DNA from: Anaerocolumna chitinilytica
Lineage (GTDB): Bacteria > Bacillota > Clostridia > Lachnospirales > Lachnospiraceae
DNA: 64,000 bases
Assembly (NCBI RefSeq): GCF_014218355.1
Contig: NZ_AP023368.1
Span: forward strand, 124,001 to 188,000
Direction of reading: 5' to 3'
Shown: positions 2,943 through 61,264 of the stretch, piece after piece
Layout: every line of letters begins with the position of its first letter
Numbering within the stretch: the stretch's first letter is position 1
Program-made: the position numbers and the translations under genes
Notes under the pieces: generated by a model
The model's database searches: none
What the model was told of the DNA's origin: nothing
What the model saw: only the letters and a program-made list of their open reading frames with translations

Positions 2943-3761
2943 TCAGGAATTTATAAACTTACCTGGGGTGCATCCATATAGCTTTTTGAAGGAAGTAATA
3001 AAGGATTTGGTATTGGGAAAACCGTTGTTCAATGCACATATGGTCAAAGTGCTGTGTGTCTTTAGGAGCTGGTCAGCGGCATGATTAACCCTTACAAAAT
3101 TAAGGTAGGAATTGTAACCAACCCCAACAATTTCTTTAAAGAACCGTGAAAAATAACTTGGAGAGTATTTAAAATGGGCAGCGATCTGTTTCAATGATAA
3201 TTCTTCTTTGTAGTTTTGCTCAATATACTCCAGAAACTCGGAGGCTTTTCCCTGTTCTTTATAAAGAGGGATGGAATATACCTTATCTTTTTGTATACAA
3301 TGGTTCCCGATAATCATAAGCAGTTCGTAGGTTTTCTGCATTAATGTAATTCCATAATAAGGTGAGGACGTATCACTGTCGTAGATATAGGATGCAATCT
3401 GTTTTACCTGTTCAGTAACCTCGGCATTGTGAGGGTTATAAAAAAATAATCCTTTACCCAGCCAGGTTTCGATAAAGGGGAGGGAGATTATGATGGAGAT
3501 ACCACGAAGGTGATCGTTTATATTGATATAACGGGAGGAATGGAGCTCGCTGCTGTTAACAAATAGCCAGTCATCTTCTGTGAACAGAAAGTCACAGCTT
3601 TCTACATTAAAATAATGCCGTCCCTCCAAGGTTACTAAGATCTCAATGCTTCGATGCCAGTGGAGAGGCGTCCATATATGTTTGCCGTTTAAATCGTGTT
3701 TATAGATTTTTACCGGCAATAAGTCAAAATTATCATTCATTGCTTCGTATAATGTAGCCAT
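2943..3761 (-). CDS. AraC-family transcriptional regulator
   Basis: A 272-residue regulator. The N-terminal half has a cupin-like sugar-sensing domain (HWHRSIEIL near 35-43, and a HYFNVES strand). The C-terminal ~100 residues hold the two helix-turn-helix units of AraC proteins (LSLKQIAAHFKYSPSYFSRFFKE, then ICALNNGFPNTKSFITSFKKLYG, ending PGKF). It is divergent from the P-loop kinase/GH13 pair, with 147 bases between the start codons, so it is probably the activator of that pair, responding to the substrate sugar. The start is supported by AGGAGGTG immediately upstream. The target assignment is inferred from position only. Confidence 0.88.
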   Translation of the reverse strand: MATLYEAMNDNFDLLPVKIYKHDLNGKHIWTPLHWHRSIEILVTLEGRHYFNVESCDFLFTEDDWLFVNSSELHSSRYININDHLRGISIIISLPFIETWLGKGLFFYNPHNAEVTEQVKQIASYIYDSDTSSPYYGITLMQKTYELLMIIGNHCIQKDKVYSIPLYKEQGKASEFLEYIEQNYKEELSLKQIAAHFKYSPSYFSRFFKEIVGVGYNSYLNFVRVNHAADQLLKTHSTLTICALNNGFPNTKSFITSFKKLYGCTPGKFINS

Positions 3762-3908
3762 TCTTCACCTCCTCAAAAATGTTGCTTAACCTATTATACC
3801 ATCGCAACAAACAGTATGCTATAGAATATAATTCCTGGCAAATAGAGAAGTTTTATATCAGAATAAGTTTTTTCAGGAATTTAATCAAATAAGAAAGAGG
3901 TAAGTAAG

Positions 3909-4895
3909 ATGAAAGAAAATAATTGTTATCAGATAATTGAAAAAGAAATTAATTGGCAGCCACCGTTGATATCGGAGGAGATAAAGCAGGGAGATATGCC
4001 GGGAGATAAGATAAGCATAGGCAGGGACCATATAGAAAAGGCAAATCGTATATTTCCGGAATTGTTAAAGCAGCTCTCAAAGATGGCGGAAAAAAACCCG
4101 CAAGGCCGCGTAGTTATCACGGTGTGCGGAGGTTCAGGAGTTGGAAAGTCTGAGATTGCATCTTTACTTTCCTATTATTTTATGAAAATGGGTATTGGCA
4201 GTTATACACTATCGGGAGACAATTATCCGAGGCGGTTCCCGGTATATAATGATGCTGAAAGACTGCATATCTTCAGAGAAAGTGCATTACAGGAAATGAT
4301 TAATGACGGAGTGTACACGGAAGAAAGATTTCATATTATTCAGGAACTTCAGAAAAAGGGAGAGGATGCAGATGATAAATATGTAATAAGATATCCATGG
4401 TTTAATTCCTATCTTGCCGGTGGGGTAAAGGGTTTAAAAGGGTATCTTGGTACGCCGCATGAGATAAACTTTGATGCATTGACTAATATAGTATCTGCAT
4501 TTAAAAAAGGTGAGAATGAGATATGGTTGAAACGGATGGGCAGGGAAGAGTCAGAGCTGTGGTTTGAGAAAGTTGATTTTAGTGAGGTAAATATTCTTAT
4601 TATTGAATGGACCCACGGTAATAGTGATTATTATAAGGGAGTAGATATTCCTGTACTCTTAAATAGTACGCCTCAGGAGACTTTGGCACATCGCAGGGCA
4701 CGTAACCGTGACGGAAAAACAGACAGTTCGTTTACTATGAAGGTATTAGAGTTGGAACAAAATATGTTAAGAGAGCAGGCAAGTAAAGCAAAAATTATCG
4801 TGACAAAACAGGGAGAGTTGATAGATTATAAGTCATATCAAGCTTTGATGGGAGCAGCCGAAGAGCAGATAAGGGTAGATGAAACAAATAAATAG
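3909..4895 (+). CDS. P-loop kinase paired with a GH13 phosphorylase
   Basis: A 328-residue cytosolic P-loop NTPase. The Walker A motif GGSGVGKS is at residues 74-81. The following region (SGDNYPRRFP, then a lid-like RARNRDGK near 260) resembles uridine kinase/phosphoribulokinase and adenylylsulfate kinase folds. About 70 residues precede the P-loop, longer than in a simple nucleoside kinase. It lies 28 bases upstream of a GH13_18-type phosphorylase and is almost certainly co-transcribed with it. A likely role is to phosphorylate the acceptor sugar or sugar acid released by that enzyme, or its substrate. This is inference; the actual substrate cannot be read from the sequence. ATP-binding ability is well supported. 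Confidence 0.7.
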   Translation: MKENNCYQIIEKEINWQPPLISEEIKQGDMPGDKISIGRDHIEKANRIFPELLKQLSKMAEKNPQGRVVITVCGGSGVGKSEIASLLSYYFMKMGIGSYTLSGDNYPRRFPVYNDAERLHIFRESALQEMINDGVYTEERFHIIQELQKKGEDADDKYVIRYPWFNSYLAGGVKGLKGYLGTPHEINFDALTNIVSAFKKGENEIWLKRMGREESELWFEKVDFSEVNILIIEWTHGNSDYYKGVDIPVLLNSTPQETLAHRRARNRDGKTDSSFTMKVLELEQNMLREQASKAKIIVTKQGELIDYKSYQALMGAAEEQIRVDETNK

Positions 4896-60109: not shown

Positions 60110-60149
60110 TTCTGATATGTGATAGACAATAAAGGTTTTGGGAACGGAC

Positions 60150-60385
60150 GATGATGCTGGATTATCGTTAGTTATTTTCTTGTTCAGGATTTCCGATTCC
60201 ACTAAAATGCCATAAAATATGACTGACAGGTCAAATGATACCAAACTCGCCTTGATGTGCTTATGCTAGCCTTAAAGGTTGAGAGCTCAGACATGGTATC
60301 ATTTGACCTAGTAATATTTTATGCCATCTAAGTGTCATCAGGAAATCTTTCAATAGAAAATACCTAACGATAATCCAGCATCATC
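60150..60385 (-). repeat. Long structured palindrome, element 1
   Basis: Basal stem: 60150-60171 pairs with 60364-60385, 22 perfect pairs. Inner stems: TATTTTCT/AGAAAATA, GATTTCC/GGAAATC, TGCCATAAAATAT with one mismatch, and a perfect 14-bp GGTCAAATGATACC. The terminal loop is about 60 nt. Read on the minus strand it shares conserved blocks with element 2: CAGATG, ATGACACTTAG, ACTAGG, CCATGT, GCGAGTTTGG, CTGTCAGT, TTAGTGGAAT and CATCGTCCG, while the stems differ. Confidence 0.85.
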
Positions 60386-60655
60386 TGTTTGTTGAAAAAA
60401 ATATTGATGCTTATCCTTGGGTAAAATCCATGGATTCTATTACATCTGGGTTTTTGTAGGTAGTACTTGAAAGATTTTCCATAGCTCAGTCTTTACAGCT
60501 TCTTTAAATACCCTAATATGCTTATGTCTGATGAATGCCATCTTTGGAAGTCTATCCGTTAGACCTAATTAAGTTATATGCAAAGCAATACACGTAACCA
60601 ATTTTTATATCATTTGAAACCAGGAATAAGTAAAATAAGTTTATGAATCGAAACA

Positions 60656-60883
60656 GATGGCCAGGGAATTGGGTTTTGTTTTGTATCGAGTGGTTCTCTA
60701 TGACACTTAGGCGGCAGAAAATGTAACTAGGAGAAACAGCGCCATGTTTGAGCCCATAAGACTCACGAAGCCAAAGCCGTTACAGCGAGTTTGGCGCTGC
60801 ATCGACTGTCAGTTACATTTACTGGCGCCTTAGTGGAATACAGAACCATGAGCAACAAAACAAAACCCAATTCCCTGGCCATC
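60656..60883 (+). repeat. Long structured palindrome, element 2
   Basis: Basal stem: 60656-60683 pairs with 60856-60883, 28 perfect pairs. Inner stems: TGGTTCT/AGAACCA, CACTTAGGCG with one mismatch, perfect AATGTAACT/AGTTACATT, and CAGCGCCA/TGGCGCTG. Conserved blocks are in the same order and similar spacing as in element 1, but in opposite orientation. Confidence 0.85.
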
Positions 60884-60931
60884 GTCCGCAGCCACAACCT
60901 GTTTTTCTCTAACCCAAAATATAAAAATCCC

Positions 60932-60959
60932 TTGACACCTGCAAGATTTCGTTTAGAAT
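60932..60959 (+). promoter_or_regulatory. valS: Promoter of the valS T-box leader
   Basis: -35 TTGACA (60932-60937), 16-base spacer, -10 TAGAAT (60954-60959). Confidence 0.75.
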
Positions 60960-60984
60960 AGTACTTAACAAACACAGACAAAAG

Positions 60985-61264
60985 CGTTGACGAGGAGGAG
61001 TACATGTTATTCCGGATGAACAGAGAGAAGATGGCTGGTGAAAATCTTCGTGATGGGAACATGGAAGTAGCCTTTGAGCTTTGGATCGAACAGAAATTTA
61101 TTTTTAAGTAGACTCCAACGGAGATTTCCACCGTTATCAGGGAAAGCGATATCGGAATACTATATTCCCGTATTGTATGAGAGCAGAATTCTATTCTGAA
61201 ATTAGGTGGTACCACGGACACGTTTCGCCCTAAGCAATTAATAAGTTGCTTAGGGCGTTTTTTG
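60985..61264 (+). promoter_or_regulatory. valS: T-box riboswitch, valine specifier
   Basis: Stem I begins GACGAGGAGGAGTACATG. The AGAGAG and GGTGAAA motifs follow. Specifier context is GGAA-GTA-GCCTTTGAGC; GTA at 61067-61069 is a valine codon. The T-box sequence AGGTGGTACCACGG is at 61204-61217. The terminator CGCCCTAAGCAA/TTGCTTAGGGCG with T-run is at 61226-61264. Uncharged tRNA-Val would favour the antiterminator and allow valS transcription. Confidence 0.92.

Follow-up and report, generated by a model that had tools for sequence, protein, structure and literature searches.

Giant quasi-palindromic hairpins of Anaerocolumna: a dispersed family with template-switched stems and a possible role as oriented boundary elements

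The window studied here, a stretch of 64,000 nucleotides taken from positions 124001-188000 of the single 5.62-Mb contig of the host genome (G000), raises the question of what maintains two long hairpins whose arms are paired yet differ between the copies. A sequence-only reading had placed two homologous structured elements in this window in inverted orientation, and had taken their stems to point to selection on structure, an undescribed non-coding RNA among the possibilities. Both elements were found where it put them. Inverted-repeat search, folding, alignment and covariance-model cores delimit element 1 (E1), conserved edges included, to about 60145..60390 on the minus strand (core G000:C1:184195-184338) and element 2 (E2) to about 60651..60888 on the plus strand (core G000:C1:184700-184840). 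The arms of E1 (60150-60194/60341-60385) are 45 nt long and 87% complementary, those of E2 (60656-60728/60811-60883) are 73 nt long and 85% complementary, and aligning one element to the other in inverted orientation gives matches of 58 nt (72% identity) and 54 nt (76%). Each folds as one long hairpin, at -114 kcal/mol (z -15.3) for E1 and -124.4 kcal/mol (z -14.2) for E2, and 0/200 shuffles were equally stable for either element. We use the term "reader's strand" for the strand on which each element was first read, minus for E1 and plus for E2.

The conserved blocks named in the earlier reading occur in the same order in both elements. On the reader's strand, the 5' half of the quasi-palindrome, which is about 240 nt long, reads AAACAGATGA - stem - YGAR - stem - ATGACACTTAAG - stem - CTAGG - stem - CCATGTTTGAGC - variable loop, and the 3' half reads GCGAGTTTGG - stem - CTGTCAG - stem - TTTAGTGGAAT - stem - YGAR - stem - TCATCGTCCG. 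The apical motif of E2 comprises CCATGTTTGAGC on the left (60742..60753, plus strand), with its TGAGC invariant in 24/24 aligned copies, and the equally invariant GCGAGTTTGG on the right (60785..60794, plus strand), which forms the tandem G.A module with TGAGC. Its mid-stem motif, recognized from sequence and alignment, has ATGACACTTAG with the conserved GA mismatch in the left arm (60700..60710, plus strand) and TTAGTGGAAT in the right arm (60830..60839, plus strand). In E1 the apical motif is found on the minus strand as GCGAGTTTGG at 60241..60250 (CCAAACTCGC on the plus strand) and as CCATGTCTGAGC at 60285..60296 (GCTCAGACATGG on the plus strand).

If the conserved unpaired positions are read as a fold, they would form tandem G.A pairs at three levels, YGAR/YGAR, TGAC/GGAA and TGAGC/GCGAG. 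The tandem G.A dinucleotides are invariant in 24/24 aligned copies at two of these three levels, in an alignment that leaves out fragments, duplicates and L029. The U.U between CTTAAG and CTTTAG is also conserved in this fold, and a GUU/GUU loop is present in about half of the aligned copies. On the opposite strand the conserved mismatches would become T.C, A.A and A.C. Because they make stable pairs on the reader's strand only, the reader's strand is probably the one that folds when single-stranded. The 3' foot on this strand is CGTCC or CGTAC in all 24 copies, and the foot on the opposite strand is often GGGGACGG. The basal stems had been called unrelated, which holds for E1 and E2 as a pair; across the alignment they resolve into two diverged subfamilies of one stem, that of E1 resembling the stems of L018, L022, L023, L024 and L028.

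The two elements belong to a large family. A covariance-model search for further homologues, as proposed with the sequence-only reading, identified 34 distinct copies in the host genome when each core is counted on its own strand only, and three relatives have dozens; the remaining matches among the 60 listed for the host are the same palindromes read backwards. The count of 34 is a lower bound, since 150 of 1561 first-look candidates were scored. Two of these copies, at 903844 and 1435562, have low scores (99 and 76 bits); their edges are not the usual ones, and they adjoin or overlap predicted open reading frames. A few additional fragments were detected by blastn only. Among same-genus genomes, 8/15 had matches: dozens each in G000, G004, G010 and G013 (both strands counted, among the matches listed), seven in G011, two in G006 and one each in G001 and G005. 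The same-genus search gave no match in, among others, G002, G003 and G012, each of these three being a single contig. The 114 copies used below are those within retrieved stretches; there are more matches in G004, G010 and G011 and a few more in G013.

An exact two-motif pattern run against genome contigs returned 28 stretches, to which Clostridium sp. KNHs205 and an Anaerocolumna metagenome-assembled genome contribute 11 each; the other six, together with both of two viral-contig stretches, were rejected as copies, their fold being unlike that of the element. Plasmid and phage searches gave no element match. A second repeat, palindromic and about 230 bp long, is exemplified by L181:3381-3612 in G004. 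Among the matches listed, G004, G010 and G013 have many copies of it, 78-91% identical, and G000 has a few. It looks like a sister family because the element tip, read on the other strand, gives the tip of this repeat, ACTCGC-loop-GCTCAAAC.

The view that the elements match no known RNA family was borne out. In the window, the only Rfam 15 match above its gathering cut-off is a T-box at 60978-61235, and at E<=10 the list extends to rli117 (18.1 bits, gathering 87) and AbsR25 (15.8 bits, gathering 47). No Rfam match was found in L181:3200-4400 or in 20 loci of other taxa. Literature searches did not return the exact tip strings, and the top-ranked titles and abstract openings of wider searches describe no such family.

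The covariation is real and far above controls: 62/78 pairs are changed on both sides, and 93.3% of cells are paired, compared with 74.4% in shuffled and 38-44% in slid controls. Paired arms that differ between copies, as E1 and E2 had suggested, are supported. The further step to selection on an RNA does not follow from this pattern, which carries the footprint of arm-to-arm template switching. Among departures from the conserved GA/GA mismatch, two-base conversions that yield a perfect palindrome stand out and run in both directions, with left GA->TC in 8/114 copies, right GA->TC in 5/114 and one GC/GC; orthologues are included among the 114, so independent events are fewer than these counts. 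In an arm alignment of 26 orthologous groups (two L166/L183 groups were left out, one as not orthologous and one for its 65% identity), double Watson-Crick changes number 61, compared with 5.8 expected from a simple independence formula, and 28 of the 61 require transversions. Since template switching between the arms makes much of the covariation, covariation alone is no proof of an RNA. The textbook covariation seen here, coming to a substantial degree from DNA copying, is a warning for methods that take covariation as proof of a functional RNA.

Could the elements then be neutral quasi-palindromes, paired solely through template switching? The switching is evident and the stems turn over freely, as such an explanation predicts, but switching should erase the GA/GA mismatch too, and 72/114 copies keep the exact ATGACAC/GTGGAAT pair. 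Rates at fixed sites point the same way. Motif columns, defined as those conserved in >=90% of the 34 host copies, diverge by 2.5% (73/2914) at the fixed sites of the 26 orthologous groups of three other genomes; variable columns, the two most variable classes, diverge by 11.0% (386/3515) at the same sites, a motif/variable ratio of 0.22 (0.14-0.32, bootstrap over loci). The less conserved column classes diverge by 4.8%, 8.4% and 15.6%. As the columns come from the host and the divergence from other genomes, motif and rate are defined on different copies. Neutral quasi-palindromes should not be spared at motif columns, so that this explanation is largely refuted unless the mutation rate is intrinsically low there, and we regard it as very improbable. 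Something at the motif columns is indicated to be under selection. The earlier interpretation is partly supported, and the acting molecule may be RNA, single-stranded DNA or duplex DNA. The mismatches that resist template-switch correction mark what is selected. One locus, L159/L191, is visibly decaying.

If the reader's strand encoded a dedicated structured non-coding RNA, the conserved tandem G.A and U.U would suit it, and substitutions should favor G.T over A.C. In the 26 orthologous groups, single changes to G.T number 85 and those to A.C 48, a ratio of 1.76 (1.23-2.65), which is a weaker excess than an RNA strongly selected for pairing would be expected to show. The outer stem of the 114 copies has the opposite ratio, 59 G.T to 87 A.C. 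Isolated mismatches on the reader's strand give 94:71 in this family, 14:10 in the second family and 33:7 in other Bacillota. The reader-strand signal is thus present and non-uniform, varying between sets: the clean orthologues and the other Bacillota speak for an RNA, but in parts of the Anaerocolumna family the ratio is weak or reversed.

The surroundings of the copies are oriented. The 3' gene is co-directional with the reader's strand in 83/114 copies (+E+ 53, -E+ 30, -E- 16, +E- 15, from mechanical open reading frame calls with orthologues counted repeatedly) and in 25/34 copies in the host alone. E2 faces a sigma-70-like promoter at 60932..60959 on the plus strand (TTGACA at 60932-60937 and TAGAAT at 60954-60959, a consensus match), directly upstream of the T-box leader of valS. 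On the 3' side of E1 a convergent gene ends, and the best promoter-like match for E1, at +109, lies inside that gene. In 3/34 host copies, E1 included, a convergent gene is faced in this way with a co-directional gene behind, and these cases count against the boundary role considered below. E1 and E2 are thus two outward-facing neighbours. Outward-facing pairs 300-600 bp apart are frequent, as at G000:C1:184195/184700, 2014069/2014391, 3700960/3701450 and 3817452/3817931. Downstream genes in the host are varied, and from their sequences we take them to include rplU, valS, dapA, murG, zapA and radC. One host copy, in L123 (G000:C1:1071300-1079400), is flanked by a guanidine-I riboswitch (3686-3784, minus strand) and a lysine riboswitch (4309-4485, plus strand).

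Promoter-like sites on the same strand with a -10 box 60-120 nt downstream of the element number 23 for 30 host copies compared with 2.5 in shuffles, and 51 for 72 copies in the relatives compared with 3.7. Taken together, 80/102 copies have a sigma-70-like promoter within 200 nt downstream on the reader's strand, and in 67 of these 80 the -35 box is 29-76 nt away. These promoter counts, like the spacer counts, omit the 12/114 copies without recognizable ends, and they count orthologues repeatedly. The other strand and the 5' side are near background, with an exception in the host of 5 versus 1.4 in two single bins. Same-strand enrichment 5' of the element was not found in the host; in three relatives promoter-like sites 30-90 nt upstream number 16 compared with 7.0 in shuffles. 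A promoter of the element's own for a small RNA was rejected on this basis, its about twofold enrichment being confined to the three relatives. The absence of upstream promoter enrichment in the host and of any Rfam match weighs against the dedicated RNA, and the sites upstream in the relatives weigh for it; we consider it unlikely overall.

A promoter downstream is expected of anything ahead of an operon, and the orientation is the informative part. Between E2 and its promoter lies a spacer (60888..60931, plus strand) of a kind that is C-rich and G-poor family-wide: the first 60 nt 3' of the element contain 27-41% C and 8-10% G across 102 copies, with a weaker skew in the host (22-35% C, 8-12% G). 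Motif divergence is 2.4% (17/700) where the 3' neighbour is convergent and 2.5% (56/2214) where it is co-directional, contexts that were assigned by hand with two doubtful. Equal motif conservation in both contexts argues against a constraint linked to the promoter alone. An intrinsic-terminator detector was positive in 3/16 and 9/41 cases with an element in reader orientation and in 12/77 and 30/206 genes without one; these counts are uninformative, because the detector finds terminators after so few of the element-free genes.

The selection could also act on DNA. A hairpin or cruciform, or the duplex arms, could be recognized by a recombination, replication or nucleoid protein, and the double changes and G.T/A.C ratios fit maintenance at the DNA level. 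By hand count, with dnaA at 1093 and the terminus assumed opposite, the reader's strand lies in the leading-strand sense in 22/32 host copies (two degenerate copies left out), where it would be exposed on the lagging-strand template, and in 18/27 copies in G013. A replication-strand preference was nevertheless rejected, these fractions being judged no more than the presumed bias of gene orientation. As the strand bias loses its force and a protein candidate is lacking, such a site is more doubtful than the dedicated RNA.

The family could instead be a selfish, non-autonomous hairpin MITE without host function that a RAYT/TIRYT-type HUH (Y1) transposase mobilizes or once mobilized. The copies are dispersed and their flanks are unrelated, and the host, at about 74% flank identity, has few sites in common with its relatives, though L136:4053 is at the site orthologous to L184:4008. 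The foot, CGTC with often GGGGACGG on the other strand, resembles the TIRYT terminal repeat GGGG[AT][CG]A[CG] as given in PMC6006769, and several other genomes have Y1 genes, about 230-300 aa in length, with GGGGACGG or GGGGACAG in their flanks (L301, L302, L303, L304, L308, L309 and L311). Three of these, in L311 (G281), L301 (G370) and L304 (G052), have several flanking copies of GGGGACGG, the octamer frequent at the element foot. Against movement by such an enzyme, neither G000 nor G010 has a Y1_Tnp (PF01797) match, G004 has a single piece below the cut-off, and the four matches in G013 are all in open frames of <=121 aa. A RAYT/HUH mobilizer in the host was accordingly rejected and is left as an ancestral possibility. 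A fragment search of the Y1 loci L286-L314 (>=18 enclosing pairs) detected no hairpin with the apical motif.

Comparison of genomes yielded no clean empty site and no target duplication, and losses between genomes appear as partial deletions. G004, G013 and G010, at 89-92% identity in compared flanks, have most retrieved loci in common: of 24 loci in G013, 22 are matched by an orthologue in G004 or G010. That the motifs remain conserved after such fixation argues against a purely selfish element. We consider this explanation unlikely, though less so than a dedicated RNA.

The reading that we prefer, at a probability of roughly one in three (0.35), is that an old REP/MITE-like family has been retained for use as an oriented boundary, the working form being a hairpin of single-stranded RNA or DNA. 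The family itself, the hairpin, the template-switch footprints, the motif conservation at fixed sites and the oriented position ahead of promoters in Anaerocolumna are computed observations. A mobilizer would have spread the family long ago, and copies would now be kept as boundaries between upstream transcription and the next promoter. The hairpin could act within read-through RNA, where Rho might enter at the C-rich, G-poor spacer, or it could form where single-stranded DNA is exposed and be recognized there by a putative factor. Template switching would continually re-match each stem, giving each copy a stem of its own.

The element tip, UGUUUGAGC-loop-GCGAGUU, also caps giant hairpins in other Bacillota. 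Its pattern in opposite-strand form, AACTCGCN{2,32}GCTCAAACA, occurs in 36/398 Bacillota genomes compared with 7 for a backward-read control, and reaches at least three occurrences in 14 genomes, G000 included, compared with never more than two in the control. Outside G000, 31/41 occurrences examined are at the tip of a hairpin that encloses them with 35 or more pairs, and 0/41 are so placed after shuffling; 20 of the loci were picked from multi-copy genomes, and among 19 not so picked the figure is 10. Copies in G043, G286 and G375 have a second motif pair, CTAAA with TTCTTAAC or a close variant, which in our alignment may correspond to the mid-stem motif of the Anaerocolumna element. In L316-L334 (G043, G286, G375 and G020) the same tip is carried on giant hairpins whose mid-stem motif differs, and the gene on the 3' side mostly has its end next to the hairpin.

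Other Bacillota show no promoter preference (2/17 and 1/16 copies, compared with 2.2 and 2.45 in shuffles) and no C-rich spacer. The 3' neighbour is on the opposite strand in 10/17 and 13/16 copies, and in 14 of these 23 it ends within 30 nt. With the neighbour mostly opposite, read-through would make the other strand, which counts against a non-coding RNA from the reader's strand. We tentatively propose, with no more weight than the boundary reading, a Bacillota-wide class of giant single-strand hairpins with this tip, stacked tandem G.A and private template-switched stems, which in Anaerocolumna would have become a selected, oriented boundary element before promoters. If the promoter-side role is true, soil and gut Bacillota would have an intergenic element, present in multiple copies, that annotation has so far missed.

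Several known repeats resemble the element in part. ERIC (127 bp), RU-2 and NEMIS are large palindromic MITE-like repeats, and like the element they are dispersed intergenic hairpins of 100-250 bp, a likeness of description and not of compared sequence. Stems private to each copy and tandem G.A modules are not known to us from these families. RU-2 is 168 bp long, according to PMC2759123. GTAG/CGTC REPs, as described by Di Nocera et al. (2013, PMC3733652), are dispersed intergenic palindromes of 20-40 bp with an unpaired tag at one end, found mainly downstream of coding regions, and the CGTC REPs are without a known transposase. The element is likewise a dispersed intergenic palindrome with oppositely oriented neighbours and no known transposase, and its CGTC-like foot may correspond to the unpaired tag. 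It differs from REPs as there described in its length of about 240 bp, well outside 20-40 bp, and in its conserved internal mismatches, copy-specific stems and position ahead of promoters in Anaerocolumna. TIRYT, placed in RAYT group 1, subclass 2.1, in PMC6006769, has the terminal repeat likeness to GGGGACGG described above; the host differs in lacking a Y1 gene, and the TIRYT loci examined lack the apical motif of the element. Finally, Monttinen and Loytynoja (2022, PMC8794818) describe template switching in RNA genes, in which a single event makes multi-base compensatory changes and the stems stay paired. The multi-base compensatory changes of the element are of this kind, but they occur in a dispersed intergenic repeat instead of RNA genes.
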